NCBI RefSeq assembly: GCF_007990445.1
Contig: NZ_AP019841.1
Span: 248,001-312,000, forward strand
DNA length: 64,000 nt
DNA from: Leptotrichia wadei
GTDB lineage: Bacteria > Fusobacteriota > Fusobacteriia > Fusobacteriales > Leptotrichiaceae
Reading direction: 5' to 3'
The notes beneath the pieces were generated by a model, which was not told where the DNA came from, ran no database searches, and saw only the letters and a list, made by a program, of their open reading frames with translations. Shown here in pieces: positions 41,549 through 61,951 of the stretch (the stretch's first letter is position 1; each line of letters opens with the position of its first letter). A program made the translations under genes and the position numbers.

Positions 41549-42598
41549 TTATAAGTTATTTAGTATGTCTTTTATTAAATCATTGTCTTCTTTTAAGACA
41601 TGTGAATATATGTCTAAAGTAGTTGATACTTTTTCGTGTCCTAGTCTTCTTGAAAGTGATACTATATTAACACCTTTTGATAATAAGAAAGTTGCATGAG
41701 AATGTCGTAAATCGTGAACTCTAATTTTTTTTAAATTAGCTTTCCGTGCATAGAAATTTATATCATTTTCAAATTTATGCTTTGTAAATCCCTCAAATAA
41801 TCTAGTTTTTGGAGTAGGTTTATACAACATTTGGATAAAATTCTGTATCATATCAGTAACAAATTTAGGACAGTCAATAATTCTTTTAGATTTAGGAGTT
41901 TTCGGAGATGTTATAATATCCATTCTATTTATTCTCTGAAAACTTTTATTTATCCTTATCTTATGCTTTTCAAAATCTATATCTGATATTGTTAATGCTA
42001 AAAGTTCACCTATCCTGATACCAGTATAAAATAATATATTGAATCCAACTACAGACTCTTTTTTATGTTCAATTGCCTTTATAAATTGATTAAACTCCTC
42101 TATTGTCCATACATTCATTTCATCAGCATTCTTTTTCCCTATAGTTCCTGCGGCTAAACAAGGATTTTTTTTCAAATTATAAAATTTGACAGCATAATTC
42201 AATATAGCAACAAGTTGATTATTAATAGTTCTTAGATAAGTTTGAGCATAATTTTTTTCCATTAATTCATTTTGCCATTTTCTAACTAATAAAGGTGTTA
42301 TTTCTTTTATTTTATATTTTTGAAAAAATGGTAATATCTTTTTATTGATAAGATATTTTTTTGTTTCAATTGTATGTAATTTTAGCCTATTTTTTAAATC
42401 ATTCATATAAGATTTACACAAATTTTCAAATATTATTTCAGTATCAGATACAAAAGAGTTTATGTAATTTCTTTCATACTCCATTGCTTCTTGCTTTTTA
42501 TTAAATCCCATTTTTTTAACTTTTTTAGAAATTCCGTTTTCTTTTACATAAAAAGAAACATACCATTTTTTGCTTTTTTCATCCTTATATGCTGGCAT
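41549..42598 (-). CDS. int: tyrosine-type site-specific integrase
   Basis: Integrates and excises the prophage. N-terminal arm-binding region (MPAYKDEKSKKWYVSFYV), SAM-like core-binding domain (about 60-140), catalytic domain with Arg in TGIRIGELLAL near 200, HDLRHSHATFLL near 305 and Tyr in TTLDIYSHV near 335. 349 residues. I start at ATG 42598 (AGGA 11 bases upstream); GTG 42607 is closer to that SD but only 2 bases away. It overlaps nothing but lies 5 bases after the Xis-like gene. Confidence 0.95.
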   Translation of the reverse strand: MPAYKDEKSKKWYVSFYVKENGISKKVKKMGFNKKQEAMEYERNYINSFVSDTEIIFENLCKSYMNDLKNRLKLHTIETKKYLINKKILPFFQKYKIKEITPLLVRKWQNELMEKNYAQTYLRTINNQLVAILNYAVKFYNLKKNPCLAAGTIGKKNADEMNVWTIEEFNQFIKAIEHKKESVVGFNILFYTGIRIGELLALTISDIDFEKHKIRINKSFQRINRMDIITSPKTPKSKRIIDCPKFVTDMIQNFIQMLYKPTPKTRLFEGFTKHKFENDINFYARKANLKKIRVHDLRHSHATFLLSKGVNIVSLSRRLGHEKVSTTLDIYSHVLKEDNDLIKDILNNL

Positions 42599-42603
42599 AA
42601 AAA

Positions 42604-42780
42604 TCACTGTCCTATATTGTAACGTTCATTGAAGTATTTAGCATTTACTTTACCTTGCTGCGTTAAAAATCCTTTTTCTCTCAATTCTTCATTCAATTTT
42701 CTTATAATCTTATATGCCTTACCTTCTTTAACACCAATTATTTTCATAATATCATCACATTCATAAAACCATTTTTTCAT
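42604..42780 (-). CDS. small Xis/ICEBs1-excisionase-like HTH protein (58 aa)
   Basis: MKKWFYECDDIMKIIGVKEG then KAYKIIRKLNEELREKGFLT and an end YFNERYNIGQ; this follows the layout of small excisionase/HTH proteins found beside Gram-positive integrases (helix, GxxxGKAYKIIRxLN, wing). Starts at the second of two ATGs, four bases after GGAGG. Its place before int supports a role in excision. Too short for routine gene finding, so easily missed. Confidence 0.72.
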   Translation of the reverse strand: MKKWFYECDDIMKIIGVKEGKAYKIIRKLNEELREKGFLTQQGKVNAKYFNERYNIGQ

Positions 42781-55080: not shown

Positions 55081-55160
55081 ATGACTGTGAAAAATATGAT
55101 AAAAAAAACTTTACTTTATAATATAAAAATGATACTATTTATACAATAGGAGTGAGAAAA

Positions 55161-56402
55161 ATGAATAAGAAGTATGAAAATTTAGAAAAAATATATTATA
55201 AAGGGAAAAATATTGATAAAGAATATGAAAAAAGAACAAAAAGCAGTTCAACTATTGTTACAGATTTAATGATTTATTCTGAATACAAAAAACAGCAAGT
55301 GCCATTATTTTTTAAAGTTTTACCAAAACACTTTAAATTACAGGAAGAAATAGGTAAAAAAAGTAAAAAGATAGAATTAAAATTTCAGAAATTGACGACT
55401 TTAATGGCGGATTATACGGTAAATAAGTTGTTTGTAAATGAAATTCTTTATACAAATAAAGTTGAGGGGATTCATTCTAGCAAGAAAGCTATTTATTCAG
55501 AATTGCAAAATAAAAAGAATGAAAAAAAATATAATAAAAAAGAAAAATTGGTAGGAATTGTTAAAAAATATGAAAATATCTTAAAAAATAAAGAAGAAAA
55601 AATTGAAAATAAGGAAGACTTCAGAAAAATATACGATAAGTTATTTATCGACTTTTTAGATAACGATAACTATAAATTAGATGGAGAAATTTTTAGAAAA
55701 GACGGTGTTGATGTAAAAAATGACACAATGGAAGTTATTCATCGTGGAATTTTGGGAGAAGAAAATATACAAAAAGAAGTCGAAAAAGTAATAAAGTTTT
55801 TAAATAATGAAGAAATTCCATCATTAATAAAAATTTCAATAATACATTTTTTTGTTGAATATATTCATCCGTTCTATGATGGGAATGGCCGTTTTGGAAG
55901 ATACTTATTATCAATGAATTTAGCTAAATACGTAGGAAAGTACACAGCTTTATCAATTTCATATATAATTGCACAAAACAAAATGAAGTATTATAAATCA
56001 TTTAAAGAAGTCGAAAGTAAATATAATTTAGGAGAGATAACTTTTTTTGTTGAAAATATTTTGGAAAATATAATCGAAGGGCAAAATTCAATTTTGGAGT
56101 TAGTAGAAAAAACAATTGAAAAAGCAGAGTACATGAATAAAATTTGTAAAGAGATAGAAGAAGAAAGAAAAGATTTGAAAGAAATAGAAATACAAATACT
56201 GTATATCTATATTCAAGATTATCTATTCAACGGATTCGAAAAAATAAAAAATAAAGATATAGCAAAAATACCAAACTTGAACAAAACCCAACAAACGATA
56301 AACAAATATACAAAAAAATTAGAAGAAAAAGGATTTGTAAAAAAAGTTTCTGAACGACCTTTAAGATATGAAATAGAAAATCGGTTAGCAGAAAAATTTT
56401 AA
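55161..56402 (+). CDS. Fic-domain protein
   Basis: Fic motif HPFYDGNGRFGR near residue 236 is complete with catalytic His. An inhibitory helix TNKVEG near 97 fits the (S/T)xxxE(G/N) rule with the inhibitory Glu in the N-terminal part (class II), so activity is likely self-restrained. A C-terminal winged helix (KIPNLNKTQQTINKYTKKLE, ~375-400) suggests DNA binding. 413 residues. Fic enzymes transfer AMP or related groups to proteins; the target is unknown. Isolated between antirepressor and HNH genes with its own terminator, so probably a moron. ATG 55161 follows AGGAG. Confidence 0.88.
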   Translation: MNKKYENLEKIYYKGKNIDKEYEKRTKSSSTIVTDLMIYSEYKKQQVPLFFKVLPKHFKLQEEIGKKSKKIELKFQKLTTLMADYTVNKLFVNEILYTNKVEGIHSSKKAIYSELQNKKNEKKYNKKEKLVGIVKKYENILKNKEEKIENKEDFRKIYDKLFIDFLDNDNYKLDGEIFRKDGVDVKNDTMEVIHRGILGEENIQKEVEKVIKFLNNEEIPSLIKISIIHFFVEYIHPFYDGNGRFGRYLLSMNLAKYVGKYTALSISYIIAQNKMKYYKSFKEVESKYNLGEITFFVENILENIIEGQNSILELVEKTIEKAEYMNKICKEIEEERKDLKEIEIQILYIYIQDYLFNGFEKIKNKDIAKIPNLNKTQQTINKYTKKLEEKGFVKKVSERPLRYEIENRLAEKF

Positions 56403-56636: not shown

Positions 56637-57319
56637 TAATAACATTGCCTGTGGAAAAAGTTTATCCAGAAATAAAAGAGAAATTAGAGGAACGCTTAAA
56701 TCATTATCCAATCAAGGTTATTCCTGTGAAGAAATTATCACAAGCACAAAATGGACTTATACACGTGTTATTAAAGCAGTTTGGAGACGAGATTGGATAT
56801 ACTTTAATAGAGATTAAGGAACTGATGAAAGAGCAGTTTGCAATAGCGACAGATAGACTGGACTTTTCCACAGCAAAATGTGATATGGAAACGGCAAACG
56901 AATTCATTTCTTTCATCATAGAGCAGGCATTGGAACTTGGAATAAATTTATATATTCTAGGCAGGCACGATAAAAGATATAAACATATATTGGAAATTGA
57001 CAATATAACACAAAGATATGTGATTGCTTGCTTGAGAAAAAGAGTTTGCTGTATCTGCGGAAAAGGGCATAATGAGTGCAGCACAATAGAACTGCATCAT
57101 TGGAACTCGGTAGCAAACATAGGCGGATACGAAAATTGCGATGGGTTAAAAACACCATTTATGAGTTTGTGTGCTAAACATCATCAGGAATTTCACGCAA
57201 CAGGCAAGGAAACATTTAAGAACAAATATTATATTGAAGGGGTGTGGTTAAATGTGGAACTTGTGAAAGAGTTGAAAAAGATTTACAAAAATCATTTTAA
57301 GGCGTTTAAGGAGAAATAA
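56603..57319 (+). CDS. HNH-type nuclease (phage HNHc_6 group)
   Basis: C-terminal HNH with zinc-binding CCICGKGHNECS, ELHHWNSVANIGG (His-Asn region) and LCAKHHQEFHATG. The N-terminal ~130 residues are a phage-specific helical domain (EIKELMKEQFAIATDRLDFS). 238 residues. Such proteins occur at this site in lactobacillus phages; possibly a junction or packaging-related nuclease. Confidence 0.85.
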   Translation: MANAEISNQEIIITLPVEKVYPEIKEKLEERLNHYPIKVIPVKKLSQAQNGLIHVLLKQFGDEIGYTLIEIKELMKEQFAIATDRLDFSTAKCDMETANEFISFIIEQALELGINLYILGRHDKRYKHILEIDNITQRYVIACLRKRVCCICGKGHNECSTIELHHWNSVANIGGYENCDGLKTPFMSLCAKHHQEFHATGKETFKNKYYIEGVWLNVELVKELKKIYKNHFKAFKEK

Positions 57320-57320
57320 A

Positions 57321-57524
57321 ATGGCAGAATTAAAAGAAGGTATTTTGAAACTTTTAAAGAACTATGGAATGACCGACAACAAAGCAGAAGAATACTACAA
57401 AAAGCAGGTTAAAGAAATAAAGAAAGTTGTTGTAAAGGAACACGTGGAACAGTTAAAGCAGGAGTGTGTAGATGTGCTGGACGAAATAAATAGGACTGGG
57501 GAAATTCCTGGACTTGTATTTTAA
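57321..57524 (+). CDS. small hypothetical protein (67 aa)
   Basis: MAELKEGILKLLKNYGMTDN, helical, ends EINRTGEIPGLVF. Starts one base after the HNH gene stop region, SD GGAG. Unknown. Confidence 0.6.
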   Translation: MAELKEGILKLLKNYGMTDNKAEEYYKKQVKEIKKVVVKEHVEQLKQECVDVLDEINRTGEIPGLVF

Positions 57525-57528
57525 AGTT

Positions 57529-57613
57529 CAGTCGCAGAAAGTCGTTTTGGCTGTAATAACAGCTCGAAATGTAGTATTTATAAGGAAAAATGACAGTCGT
57601 GAAAAGTCGTTTT
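57529..57613 (+). repeat. 20-base direct repeat pair
   Basis: CAGTCGCAGAAAGTCGTTTT (57529-57548) and CAGTCGTGAAAAGTCGTTTT (57594-57613), three mismatches at most, 65 bases apart. Between them is a GCTGT / ACAGC hairpin. Might be protein-binding sites. Confidence 0.55.
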
Positions 57614-57637
57614 ATTAGAGAAAGGTTAGGAGGAGAA

Positions 57638-57832
57638 ATGAAAATAGCAATATTGTTATTATTATTAGTACCAATTTTATTTTGGATTACATTTATTTGG
57701 TCAATATTTGAAAATGCAGTAGAAAGAATGAAGAATTATAATCTGCTCGGAATGTTAGCAAGTTTAGGTTTTGGGATACTTATGGCTTACGGATTGTATG
57801 AGTTTTTATTGAAAATAATAGATCCAGGATAA
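57638..57832 (+). CDS. small membrane protein (64 aa)
   Basis: MKIAILLLLLVPILFWITFI and a second hydrophobic part LGMLASLGFGILMAYGLYEF. ATG 57638 follows AGGAGG. Unknown; position before late genes would allow a holin-like or superinfection role, which is speculation. Confidence 0.55.
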   Translation: MKIAILLLLLVPILFWITFIWSIFENAVERMKNYNLLGMLASLGFGILMAYGLYEFLLKIIDPG

Positions 57833-57872
57833 ATTTATTGGTGTTAGAAAAAAAACGGAAACAGGAGAAAGT

Positions 57873-58007
57873 ATGAAAAATAAGGATAGAATGCAGTTTA
57901 ATTTAAAAAACTGGAGAAAATTAAATTGGAGTTTATGGAACAGGGAAGATGAAAATAAAGCAAGTTTTGAAAAAATATTGAATAAAGACAAGTATAAAAA
58001 GAAATAG
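57873..58007 (+). CDS. small basic protein (44 aa)
   Basis: MKNKDRMQFNLKNWRKLNWS then acidic middle and Lys-rich end. SD CAGGAG before ATG. Unknown. Confidence 0.45.
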   Translation: MKNKDRMQFNLKNWRKLNWSLWNREDENKASFEKILNKDKYKKK

Positions 58008-58019
58008 GAGGATTTGAAA

Positions 58020-58166
58020 ATGTCAAAAAAAATAATGAGGATAGTGTTTTGCTTTATAATTACATTTATAGGTGTTGTGCAAATTGAACAAACTAAAGAT
58101 TTTTTAGATCTAGCTAAATTAGTTGTGAGTTTTGCATTTGGTATGTGGGTATCGAAATGGATTTAA
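58020..58166 (+). CDS. small membrane protein (48 aa)
   Basis: MSKKIMRIVFCFIITFIGVV then a second hydrophobic stretch LAKLVVSFAFGMWVSKWI. AGGAGG at 58007-58012 is the SD. Unknown. Confidence 0.5.
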   Translation: MSKKIMRIVFCFIITFIGVVQIEQTKDFLDLAKLVVSFAFGMWVSKWI

Positions 58167-58190
58167 AATAATTTGAGAAAGGGGATTAAA

Positions 58191-58421
58191 ATGAAAAAAT
58201 TATTATTAGCAGGACTTTTAACAACAACTATAAGTTGCAGTACATATTATGAAAAGTTTCAACAAGAGTGCAGGCAATATAAAGTTATAAAAAAGTTAAA
58301 ATCTAAAACAAGTAAAAAGATATATCTGAAATTTGAAAATGGCATTATATATGAGGTATCGCCAATAATGAAGTATGAGGACATAGAAGAGAATCACAAG
58401 TTGAAGAAATGTGAATTTTAG
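58191..58421 (+). CDS. small prophage lipoprotein (76 aa)
   Basis: MKKLLLAGLLTTTISCSTYY has a lipobox-like TISC, predicting lipid attachment at Cys16. Mature part is basic and short, ending KLKKCEF. ATG 58191 follows AAAGGGGA. Could be a surface-exclusion lipoprotein, by analogy only. Confidence 0.65.
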   Translation: MKKLLLAGLLTTTISCSTYYEKFQQECRQYKVIKKLKSKTSKKIYLKFENGIIYEVSPIMKYEDIEENHKLKKCEF

Positions 58422-58440
58422 AAAATAAATTTAAAAATTA

Positions 58441-58459
58441 GGACAATGACAGTTGAATA
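58441..58459 (+). repeat. 19-base motif upstream of the TIR gene
   Basis: GGACAATGACAGTTGAATA, 17 of 19 identical to 55062-55080. It overlaps the -35 region of the promoter at 58453-58480. Confidence 0.6.
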
Positions 58460-58480
58460 TTTTTGGTTTTGAGGTATAAT
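58453..58480 (+). promoter_or_regulatory. candidate promoter of the TIR gene
   Basis: TTGAAT (58453-58458), 16 bases, TATAAT (58475-58480). Confidence 0.65.
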
Positions 58481-58508
58481 ATTATTATAAAAATCTTAGG
58501 AGGAATTT

Positions 58509-58562
58509 ATGGATAGTAGAATTTTAATTGAAAATCTAAATTTTTATGAGGTGATAATATGA
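58509..58562 (+). CDS. 17-codon leader peptide upstream of the TIR gene
   Basis: ATG at 58509 behind TAGGAGG; reads MDSRILIENLNFYEVII and stops in an ATGA overlap with the TIR start. Translation of the leader would pass across the TIR ribosome site GAGGTG, giving translational coupling. Its peptide may not matter in itself. Confidence 0.55.
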   Translation: MDSRILIENLNFYEVII

Positions 58563-59341
58563 TATTTATAAGTCATAATCATAAAGATAAGAAAATTATT
58601 GAACCTTTTGCAAACCGTCTTTCTGATGTATATGGAAAAGATAATGTGTTTTATGATAGCTGGTCTATCCAACCTGGAGACGGTATAATTGATAAAATGA
58701 ATAAAGGATTATCATCAATTAATTATTTTTTCTTTTTTGTGTCTGATAATAGTTTGAAAAGTGATATGGTTAAACTTGAATGGCAAAATGCTTTAATTAC
58801 TTCATTAAGTGATGACATAAAATTTATTCCAGTCAGATTGGATCAAAGCGAAATGCCAGCAATATTAAAACAGATATTATATTTAGATGTTTTTTCAAAT
58901 GGATTTGAAACTGTATTGAGACAGATGATTGATGTGATTGACGGGAATAATACTTATCATGGGGAAAAACGAACATACGAAAATGTAAATTCAAAAATCA
59001 AGGTATTAAATAAGAATGAAATTGAAATTGAAATTTTTGCAACTACATATATGGAACCAATTGGTAAATATATTATTTTGACATTAAATGAAGAAGAAGA
59101 ATTAAAAGTAGAATGTCCTAAGGAAGCAATGTTTGGAAATGGTTTTTTAAAAGGGCTAGAAATAGAAAGAAATCTTGCGAAAGAAACAGTAAACGGCGTA
59201 ATTATATCATTACATAGACCATTAACTCCTGGATTTCCGTTGAGAATAATAATTAAATCTGACACAGAAATAATTTTTAGAGGAATTATGAAAGCAATAT
59301 CTGAAGAAAAAATTGTAGGTATTCCAACAGAAGTAATTTAA
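58559..59341 (+). CDS. TIR-domain protein
   Basis: N-terminal TIR fold (residues 1-130): MIFISHNHKDKKIIEPFA, DNVFYDSWSIQPGD, and SDMVKLEWQNAL with Glu74 in the place of the catalytic NAD-cleaving Glu. Residues ~135-260 form an unrecognised beta-rich domain (EIEIEIFATTYMEPIGKYII, GFPLRIIIKSDTEIIFRG). 260 residues. TIR proteins of this kind act as NADases in anti-phage defence or signalling. It has its own promoter, leader and terminator, so it is a self-contained moron unit. Confidence 0.87.
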   Translation: MIFISHNHKDKKIIEPFANRLSDVYGKDNVFYDSWSIQPGDGIIDKMNKGLSSINYFFFFVSDNSLKSDMVKLEWQNALITSLSDDIKFIPVRLDQSEMPAILKQILYLDVFSNGFETVLRQMIDVIDGNNTYHGEKRTYENVNSKIKVLNKNEIEIEIFATTYMEPIGKYIILTLNEEEELKVECPKEAMFGNGFLKGLEIERNLAKETVNGVIISLHRPLTPGFPLRIIIKSDTEIIFRGIMKAISEEKIVGIPTEVI

Positions 59342-59360
59342 AAAGAATAAATATATAACG

Positions 59361-59385
59361 AAAGACCATTTTTGGTCTTTTTATT
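59361..59385 (+). terminator. terminator of the TIR gene
   Basis: Stem AAAGACCA / TGGTCTTT with 4-base loop and T tail, directly after the stop codon. Confidence 0.85.
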
Positions 59386-59418
59386 ATTAACTTAAAATGG
59401 AAAGGAAAACAAAACTAA

Positions 59419-59946
59419 ATGAACGAAAAAGATATAGACAGAATAGCAGATAAAATAATAGAAAGAATGAAAACTGACAAGGAAATAAAAACAGAAAAAC
59501 AACTAACACCATTTCAAAAGACCGAAAAATTATTATCCGAATTATCGTTACTGAAAGGTGCTATTGATTCTAAAAATATGCTTATAGAGGATTTGAAGAA
59601 AGAGGGAATATCAATTCAGAAAAAGAAAACAGAAGTTAATGTGCAGGCTAGTAAAGTATATTTATCCGAACTGGAAAAGGTTGAAAACAAAATAGAGAAA
59701 TTAGAGGAAGAGATTGCAAGAATAGAAAATGTGGTTAATATGGTTGAAAGAGCATTAGATACAATCAGGAATAATAAGTATTACGATATAATAGAAATGA
59801 AGTATTTCGATGAATTAACATTTGAGCATATATCTGAGAAATTAAATATAAGCGTTATAACTGCGAAAAGATATAAAAATAAAATGATTAGACAGTTGCA
59901 ATTAGTTATATTTTCAGATGATGTAATAAAAAATATATTAAATTGA
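59419..59946 (+). CDS. sigma-like phage late transcription regulator (ArpU/RinA-type)
   Basis: Helical N-terminal coiled coil (about 25-115), then region-4-like HTH: YFDELTFEHISEKLNISVIT and AKRYKNKMIRQL near 130-160. 175 residues. Its position just before the late promoter and terS matches late-gene activators. Confidence 0.75.
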   Translation: MNEKDIDRIADKIIERMKTDKEIKTEKQLTPFQKTEKLLSELSLLKGAIDSKNMLIEDLKKEGISIQKKKTEVNVQASKVYLSELEKVENKIEKLEEEIARIENVVNMVERALDTIRNNKYYDIIEMKYFDELTFEHISEKLNISVITAKRYKNKMIRQLQLVIFSDDVIKNILN

Positions 59947-59966
59947 AAAATGATACTTTTTTGATA

Positions 59967-59994
59967 TTGTATATAATTTTTAATATGTTATAAT
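59967..59994 (+). promoter_or_regulatory. late promoter upstream of terS
   Basis: TTGTAT (59967-59972), 16 bases, TATAAT (59989-59994) with TGT extended -10. Confidence 0.7.
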
Positions 59995-60057
59995 ATGTGA
60001 AGATGTAAGAGTATGAGTTGAGTACTTGTTATTGAATCCTTGATTTTATATAAGCAT

Positions 60058-60086
60058 AAGGCAGTTTAAAGGCTGTCTTTTTTTTT
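60058..60086 (+). terminator. leader terminator between late promoter and terS
   Basis: Stem AAGGCAG / CTGTCTT (one G-U) with 8-base loop and nine T, inside the late leader. Placed to stop or attenuate late transcription unless antitermination occurs. Confidence 0.7.
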
Positions 60087-60105
60087 ACAGAAGGAGGTGG
60101 TAGCA

Positions 60106-60507
60106 TTGAAATTAAATGCAAGGCAGAAGTCTTTTTGCGAGTTTTATGTAGCTAGTGGAAATGCTACTGAATCCGCAATAAAGGCTGGGTATAAAGAAAA
60201 GTATGCAAGACAAAATGCACCAAAATTACTACAAAATACTACGTTATCAAAATACATAAAAGAATTACAGGAAAAAACAAAAACAAGCAGAATAATGACA
60301 GCGATTGAGAGACGAGAGTTTTTAACAGAAGTTATTAAAAATGGAAATGAAAAGGTACAGGATAGATTAAAGGCATTAGATATTTTAAATAAAATGGATG
60401 GTGAATATATTGAAAAAATGCAATTGTCTGGGCAAGTGAATACCAATCCGCTTTCAGGGCTTACTACTGAGGAGTTAAGAACATTAGCTGGTGGTAAGAA
60501 TGGATAA
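60106..60507 (+). CDS. terS: phage terminase small subunit
   Basis: LNARQKSFCEFYVASGNATESAIKAGY-type HTH near the N-terminus, then a coiled region; the C-terminal end has LSGLTTEELRTLAGG. Start is TTG 60106 with AAGGAGG eight bases upstream; the GTG at 60097 lies inside that site. 133 residues. Recognises the pac or cos site, then hands DNA to TerL. Confidence 0.88.
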   Translation: MKLNARQKSFCEFYVASGNATESAIKAGYKEKYARQNAPKLLQNTTLSKYIKELQEKTKTSRIMTAIERREFLTEVIKNGNEKVQDRLKALDILNKMDGEYIEKMQLSGQVNTNPLSGLTTEELRTLAGGKNG

Positions 60508-61951
60508 AATGGAAATGATAAGGCTGGAAGCTGTTAAGGAATTATCTCGTAGAAATTTATTGGATTTTCTTATTTTCGACGGAAACGGAAGATATAAGAA
60601 TGCAAGGCACATACAATTTTTGACGGATAAAGCACAGCAATTTGTAGAAGATGTCAAGGATGGCAAAAGTCCACGATTATTTGTTAGTATGCCGCCACGA
60701 CATTCAAAATCTGAAACTATGACAAAGAAATATCCAGCTTGGGTAATTGGAAATAATCCTGATTTTGAAATTATAATCGCAAGTTACTCAATGGATTTAG
60801 CAAGGGACTTTGGGAAAATAGCTAGAGATACTTATAGAGAACACAGTAAAAGCGGGACAGGGATTTTTAACTCTATTATAGATAGAGATAAAAGTGCTGG
60901 GGATAACTGGGGAATTTTGGAACATAGAGGAGCAGTTGTAAGTACAGGAGTGGGTGGAAGTGCAACAGGTAAAGGAGCACATATTGCAATAATAGATGAT
61001 CCGTTTAAAAACAGGGAAGACGCAAATAGCAGATTACAGCGTGATAAAGTTTGGGCTTGGTATCAATCAACTATTCGTACAAGGTTAGCACCTGGAGGTG
61101 GAATAATAATAATTCAGACTAGATGGCATGAAGATGATTTGGTTGGCAGAATAGTCAAGGAAATGGAAAATGGTACTGGGGAAACTTTTGAAAGTATTGT
61201 GTTGCCAGCCATAGCAGAAGAAAATGATATTCTCGGAAGAAAAGTAGGTGAGCCATTGTGGGAAGAACGATATGGAATTGATGAACTGGAAAATATAAAA
61301 AAGGCAATAGGAAGTCGTGAATTTTCAGCATTGTATCAGCAAAAGCCACAAGTTGAGGATGGTGGATTATTTAAGCGTCAATATTTCAAATATTTTGATG
61401 TAAAAAATGATTTTATTATAGCTGATAATAAAAATGTTAATATCAAAGACTGTTTTTATTTTCAAACGATAGATACAGCAATGAGTACACATAAAAACAA
61501 TGATTTTACGGCAATAGCAACCTTTATTTGTGATAGGGAATGGAATTTATATTTAGTTGATTTAATGCTTGAAAGATTAGAAGTACCAGACCAATGGAAT
61601 GTAATTAAGCAGTATAGGCATAAATATAATTTACGATTCCAATCAATAGAGAGTAAGAGCAGCGGTATAGGAATAATGCAACAGGCAAAACGTGAAGGTA
61701 TGCCATTAAAAGAATTAAAGGCAGATACAGACAAAATGACTAGAGCATTAAACATTTCAGTTATGTTTGAAAATGGCAAAGTATTTTTTAACAAAAAGTT
61801 GGAAAAATTATTAGAACTTGAAGAACAGTTGTTAAAATTTCCGAATGCTGTACACGATGACGCTGTTGATGTATGCAGTTATGCTGGAATTGTTATAAAT
61901 GATTTAATACAAAATTCAAAAAGGTATATTAGAAAATTTATAAGCGTGTAG
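60500..61951 (+). CDS. terL: phage terminase large subunit
   Basis: ATPase and nuclease that fills the head. Walker A-like MPPRHSKSETM near residue 64, Walker B IAIIDDPFKN near 160, and a C-terminal RNase H-like nuclease starting FQTIDTAMSTHKNNDFTAI near 320 and ending with HDDAVDVCSY. 483 residues. Start ATG 60500 overlaps terS by eight bases. Confidence 0.93.
   Translation: MDKMEMIRLEAVKELSRRNLLDFLIFDGNGRYKNARHIQFLTDKAQQFVEDVKDGKSPRLFVSMPPRHSKSETMTKKYPAWVIGNNPDFEIIIASYSMDLARDFGKIARDTYREHSKSGTGIFNSIIDRDKSAGDNWGILEHRGAVVSTGVGGSATGKGAHIAIIDDPFKNREDANSRLQRDKVWAWYQSTIRTRLAPGGGIIIIQTRWHEDDLVGRIVKEMENGTGETFESIVLPAIAEENDILGRKVGEPLWEERYGIDELENIKKAIGSREFSALYQQKPQVEDGGLFKRQYFKYFDVKNDFIIADNKNVNIKDCFYFQTIDTAMSTHKNNDFTAIATFICDREWNLYLVDLMLERLEVPDQWNVIKQYRHKYNLRFQSIESKSSGIGIMQQAKREGMPLKELKADTDKMTRALNISVMFENGKVFFNKKLEKLLELEEQLLKFPNAVHDDAVDVCSYAGIVINDLIQNSKRYIRKFISV

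Follow-up and report, generated by a model that had tools for sequence, protein, structure and literature searches.

Does the TIR gene in this part of the Leptotrichia wadei genome bring its control elements along with it, or do these belong to the site in which the gene resides, and what would its product do there? The gene lies in a stretch of 64,000 nucleotides (contig NZ_AP019841.1, positions 248,001 to 312,000; hereafter the window), within which a sequence-only reading had marked 58441-59385 as a self-contained TIR unit with a promoter, a coupled leader and a terminator of its own. Our analysis confirms the anatomy of the unit, that is, the promoter, the 17-codon open reading frame, the ATGA overlap, the TIR gene, the beta C-terminal domain and the terminator. 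The description as self-contained is inexact, however, since promoter, ribosome site and terminator are elements of a prophage slot rather than of the TIR gene. Instead of a TIR operon, we see a cargo slot that recurs within one prophage family. Its features and their neighbours in the window are:

41549-42607, minus strand: tyrosine integrase in the left part of the prophage, read from the open reading frame
58191-58421, plus strand: gene for a small lipoprotein (lipobox TISC) that flanks the slot on the left; 87% DNA identity with three other slots and 88% amino acid identity in L047
58441-58464, plus strand: 24-base box GGACAATGAC(A/G)GTTGAATATTTTT holding the -35 element, with a single variable position across six prophages
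58453-58480, plus strand: predicted slot promoter of the sigma-70 type, TTGAAT-16-TATAAT, from pattern search and conservation in six prophages
58498-58503, plus strand: slot Shine-Dalgarno sequence AGGAGG, which drives the cargo in L020, L021, L022 and L024 (AAGGAG in L047)
58509-58562, plus strand: 17-codon leader reading frame, its ATG at the position of the cargo ATG in L020
58540-58588, plus strand: predicted RNA hairpin over the ribosome site and ATG of the TIR gene
58559-59341, plus strand: TIR protein of 260 amino acids, the slot cargo (Pfam TIR_2; family alignments)
58559-58951, plus strand: TIR domain, residues 1-131, with invariant Phe3 and Glu74 (VIA-align Z 11-13 to the SPARTA TIR, AbTir and the Cat1 TIR)
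58973-59338, plus strand: C-terminal beta-sandwich of the AlphaFold2 model, residues about 139-260, putative trigger-sensing domain
59360-59389, plus strand: slot intrinsic terminator (stem 59360-59381 plus T tail), from pattern search, fold and a position kept in other slots
59419-59946, plus strand: ArpU/RinA/sigma-like late regulator that flanks the slot on the right (phrog_36; weak match to TIGR01636 RinA); 87-97% amino acid identity in three other slots
60097-61951, plus strand: terminase small and large subunits (phrog_51, phrog_38)

The slot became apparent when the DNA of window 57300-60500 was compared with 13 congeneric genomes: it aligns on either side of the TIR gene, with no match spanning the gene, and in L020 the match ends at window position 58511 and restarts at 59341. 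Four such slots in congeneric genomes (L020, L021, L022 and L024) and one on a viral contig to which the lipoprotein led (L047) form with the window a set of six prophages. They have a common left frame in which the 24-base box is followed by a -10 box (TATAAT, in one case TATAAC) and by AGGAGG (in one case AAGGAG). The 24-base box occurs once in each slot-bearing genome (5 of the 13 congeners) and in none of the other eight, and no copy is expected in shuffles of the window. After the ribosome site the same frame carries six different cargo genes:

Cargo 1: the 260-residue TIR protein of the window
Cargo 2: a 313-residue membrane protein
Cargo 3: a 227-residue protein with a weak match near its C-terminus to the PADLOC candidate PDC-S05 (L021, 4039-4722)
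Cargo 4: a 206-residue protein with one N-terminal hydrophobic stretch
Cargo 5: a 64-residue probable coiled coil
Cargo 6: a 285-residue protein whose RNTIHNN motif resembles, by eye, a HEPN RNase active site (L047, 6275-7132)

The slot ribosome site drives the cargo directly in all five slots other than that of the window. All five slots inspected (window, L020, L021, L022 and L024) have a terminator after the cargo, with stem sequences that differ and pairing that is kept, and the same ArpU/RinA-like regulator stands to the right of the slot in four of the six prophages, the other two having another type of terminase. As the flanks are constant and the cargo differs, promoter, ribosome site and terminator are parts of the site and the gene is its variable part. 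The terminator (fold z -3.3) is one of four terminator-type sites in the whole stretch, where 0.4 are expected. The promoter pattern is the joint best among 20 promoter-like sites, a number to be read against the 17.1 expected by shuffling. Because such sites are common in AT-rich DNA we judged the predicted promoter by its conservation; weak when taken alone, it is convincing through its recurrence in six prophages. Thus, the earlier attribution of an own promoter and terminator holds in so far as both are present and the TIR gene is predicted to form a separate transcription unit, but both are slot parts common to unrelated cargo genes. A search of viral contigs with a shorter promoter pattern gave two matches, both by chance and inside coding sequence, and L050 was discarded as a slot, since its terminase is related but its regulator differs and the slot is lacking.

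Related prophages that have the same flanks but different cargo are what one expects of a prophage defence hotspot, and this is what the six prophages and their six cargoes display. The label 'defence slot' rests on the TIR protein, the weak PDC-S05 match and the one HEPN-like motif; matches of the other slot cargoes are weak and give no confident defence annotation, and the 285-residue cargo of L047 has no match in the libraries.

Pfam TIR_2 (PF13676) covers residues 2-122 of the TIR protein (E 7.4e-23, 81.8 bits against a gathering cut-off of 28), and the best PDB sequence matches include NADase TIRs. The catalytic Glu74, which had been noted as kept, is indeed present and is invariant in both the 10-row and the 8-row family alignment. 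A PADLOC match to TIR-NLR spans only positions 3-95 of an 824-position profile, and the 260-residue protein has no NTPase and TPR region after its TIR domain. The cargo of the window is a probable NAD-destroying TIR protein, likely to protect the host cell from other viruses.

The C-terminal part was said to be a beta domain of unknown kind, and this is borne out: residues 135-260 have no Pfam match, and structure prediction yields an all-beta fold. The AlphaFold2 model was built from 10 homologues, a poor two-sequence model having been set aside, and has a mean pLDDT of 79. Residues 141-260 form strands only, with pLDDT mostly about 76-94; the relative placement of the two domains is unreliable because the pTM is 0.50. 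When the whole model was compared with known structures, VIA-align returned TIR matches only and Foldseek weak matches to cohesin, CBM and integrin-type beta folds.

TIR domain and beta-sandwich together define a family of about a dozen distinct homologues that are about 40-53% identical and for which Pfam, PHROGs, PADLOC and NCBIfam hold no full-length entry. A single-sequence scan of viral contigs (query P0001) found nothing, whereas alignment-based scans found the family: a seed of the window protein and an Acinetobacter MAG protein of 41% identity to it gave ten full-length relatives, and a broader alignment brought in another five, with 53% identity in one case. Phe3, a FYDSWSIxPGxGII stretch and Glu74 within ExWQN are common to all aligned members. 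Searches of the phage collection gave no match, and matches on plasmids were rejected as members, as they cover the TIR part only and have other C-termini. On a Pseudomonas savastanoi plasmid (L072, 2998-4761) a related, apparently truncated TIR gene overlaps with a transposase gene of the IS3 family.

The homologues reside in prophages of several lineages. Those in L080 and L089 lie among replication and nin-type genes, that in L085 directly before terminase and that in L114 between an ArpU-like regulator and terminase. Nine E. coli genomes have a relative (the P2 homologue is WP_000576798.1), and in the three that were opened it lies between the replication endonuclease and portal genes of a P2-like prophage, a location that corresponds to the gpA-gpQ hotspot described in PMC9122126. 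In a tenth E. coli genome a lambdoid prophage carries the relative, with ren on one side and nin genes on the other. These sites point to a single-gene defence cargo. A DUF4145 gene adjoins the TIR gene in two of the three opened P2 sites; the one that was tested (L111, 4893-5633) matches PD-T7-4 of PADLOC and could be a defence gene of the hotspot in its own right. The family is rare: within the phylum (about 98 genomes) only the window genome carries it, and a survey of 398 Pseudomonadota genomes gave no further copy at E 1e-25.

How does such a slot compare with known systems? Phage morons are accessory genes that have their own promoter and terminator and are inserted between phage genes; here, in contrast, it is the gene that is exchanged, and promoter and terminator remain at the site. 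The P2 gpA-gpQ hotspot (Rousset et al. 2022, PMC9122126) is a prophage site with exchangeable cargo, much of it anti-phage, and houses E. coli members of the TIR family. It differs, however, in phage family and position, and the window slot frames a single cargo with one conserved promoter, ribosome site and terminator. Among TIR proteins, SpbK of ICEBs1 (PMC11984713) is likewise a single-gene TIR NADase of about 260 amino acids on a mobile element, activated by a phage portal protein. Yet its sensor is N-terminal and its TIR domain C-terminal, the reverse of the order in the window protein, whose extra domain is beta, and SpbK matches are confined to the TIR part. The CRISPR-associated Cat1 (PDB 9mud; 263 amino acids) shares the N-terminal TIR domain (Z 12.4) and an extra C-terminal domain, but the structural alignment ends at residue 132, the sequence match covers the TIR part only, the C-terminal part of the window protein is modelled all-beta, and no CRISPR context is seen at the slot. 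The mark of Cat1 is a Rossmann-like CARF ligand-binding domain. Finally, Tha/Ith of Staphylococcus prophages (PMC11087260) is also a single prophage-carried effector against incoming phages; there, however, the effector is the HEPN RNase Tha, and an antisense inhibitor gene solves the autoimmunity problem, whereas no such gene was identified at the window slot.

We consider it fairly probable that the locus is a one-gene cargo slot with fixed promoter, ribosome site and terminator, which at present holds a TIR plus beta-sandwich protein for defence by NAD cleavage and abortive infection. The slot between the small lipoprotein gene and the late regulator supplies promoter, AGGAGG and terminator, and cargo genes are swapped in, probably by recombination in the shared flanks. 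The TIR protein would be made constitutively in the lysogen, its beta domain would recognise a product of a superinfecting phage, and the TIR domains would then cleave NAD+ by means of Glu74, so that infection is stopped by abortive infection, a mode of action comparable to that of SpbK. The terminator would keep slot transcripts out of the late regulator and terminase genes, and translation of the leader may melt the hairpin over the TIR start and thereby couple translation of the two reading frames. Computation establishes the slot, the exchange of cargo, the family, the fold, the catalytic residues and the hairpin, and from there expression, trigger, NAD cleavage, protection and coupling are inferred.

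But is the leader more than a by-product of the exchange of cargo? The reading frame at 58509-58562 (MDSRILIENLNFYEVII*) has a strong ribosome site, AGGAGG with a 5-nt spacer to its ATG, and overlaps the TIR ATG at 58559. Both ribosome site and ATG are those of the slot, and the cargo of L020 begins at this very ATG; the TIR gene has a ribosome site of its own (GAGGTGAT; GAGGTG at 58548-58553). None of the other family members inspected has a short reading frame that is backed by a Shine-Dalgarno sequence and ends at the TIR start, and no comparable leader precedes any of the five other slot cargoes. Since no other member has such a leader and the slot supplies its ATG, the most fitting reading of the leader is a junction that places the slot ribosome site and ATG before a TIR gene with its own ribosome site. 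Nor is the ATGA overlap independent evidence, as codon 2 of the TIR gene encodes Ile (ATN) and ATG-ATN always contains ATGA, which forces the stop. One might still argue that the leader is a selected device, in which the hairpin silences the TIR gene and only ribosomes translating the leader open it and so set the dose of NADase. Besides the leader's strong start, the hairpin fits this idea: its predicted stability of -12.0 kcal/mol was equalled by 3 of 500 shuffles, with borders that were set after the fold had been seen. At 13.1 kcal/mol, opening of the TIR start is predicted to be costlier than that of any other start in a comparison of 21, with a z of 3.4 relative to shuffled flanks; the same cost is reached by 4 of 208 host and window genes, one of which is apparently the TIR gene itself (hence about 3 of 207 others, in a scan that drew on 20 genome stretches). 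The 3' arm of the hairpin, however, lies within the codons of the conserved SHNxKDK motif, and the hairpin is known from one copy. Of the features of a coupling leader, an upstream reading frame with ribosome site, an overlapping stop and a predicted hidden downstream ribosome site are thus present and conservation in relatives is absent. Coupling through the predicted hairpin is therefore plausible whereas selection for it is not supported, and the earlier claim stands as regards the overlap, to which the analysis adds a strong ribosome site and a hairpin predicted to hide the TIR start, but not as regards the control device for a toxic NADase, an explanation that we regard as possible but doubtful. 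Attenuation by the leader was dismissed, there being no terminator-like site between leader and TIR gene. Among the slots, the cargo start of L022 (3700-4320), which has no leader, ranks second in occlusion (opening cost z 2.5). We deem it rather unlikely that the 24-base box is at the same time an operator read by the prophage switch, so that slot genes are expressed in the lysogen and shut off upon induction, with leader and hairpin as an extra brake on the toxic TIR; the invariant box would, though, be a natural place for control against self-activation on induction.

Other explanations concern the action of the protein. As in Thoeris, the TIR domain could produce cyclic ADP-ribose as a signal to a separate effector whose gene lies elsewhere, and weak PADLOC matches to ThsB and a Phe and Glu pair as in ThsB2, invariant in the family, are in line with this. 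The gene is flanked by those for a lipoprotein and a late regulator and not by one for a ThsA-type effector, however, and the homologues in unrelated prophages have no partner gene in common, so that we think such signalling improbable. We also attach a low probability to a role in the late phase of the prophage instead of the lysogen, for instance in draining host NAD or in hindering other phages during the burst. This would suit the position of the gene in the window and in L114, close to late regulator and terminase, and in L085, directly before terminase, but the slot promoter and terminator insulate the TIR gene from late transcription, and its position varies elsewhere, as in P2 gpA-gpQ. 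Many TIR domains serve as scaffolds, and the window protein might accordingly be a catalytically idle scaffold or decoy; the invariance of Glu74 and its surrounding motif across distant members, and the NADase TIRs among the best PDB matches, make this very unlikely.

Our preferred reading of a compact slot with fixed control elements and a changing gene has practical use, as the 24-base box may serve to find further candidate defence genes in related prophages. Moreover, the prophage TIR proteins, including the E. coli P2-hotspot copies, form one testable family, whose E. coli members can be tested in laboratory strains. The operator function of the box, if true, would offer prophage-borne defence a general way around the problem of autoimmunity.

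Two further observations concern the same genome. A Fic protein with a HPFYDGNGRFGR motif is encoded at 55152-56402 on the plus strand; it matches PADLOC SoFic (E 3.7e-37) but lies far below the NCBIfam SoFic equivalog cut-off (59.6 versus 550 bits), and its gene is possibly a second defence or regulatory cargo of the prophage. In addition, contig C3 of the genome (G000; 29,647 bases, L031) carries early-region genes that also occur in the prophage and in a third region, near C1:1405501, and is possibly a phage or plasmid-like element.
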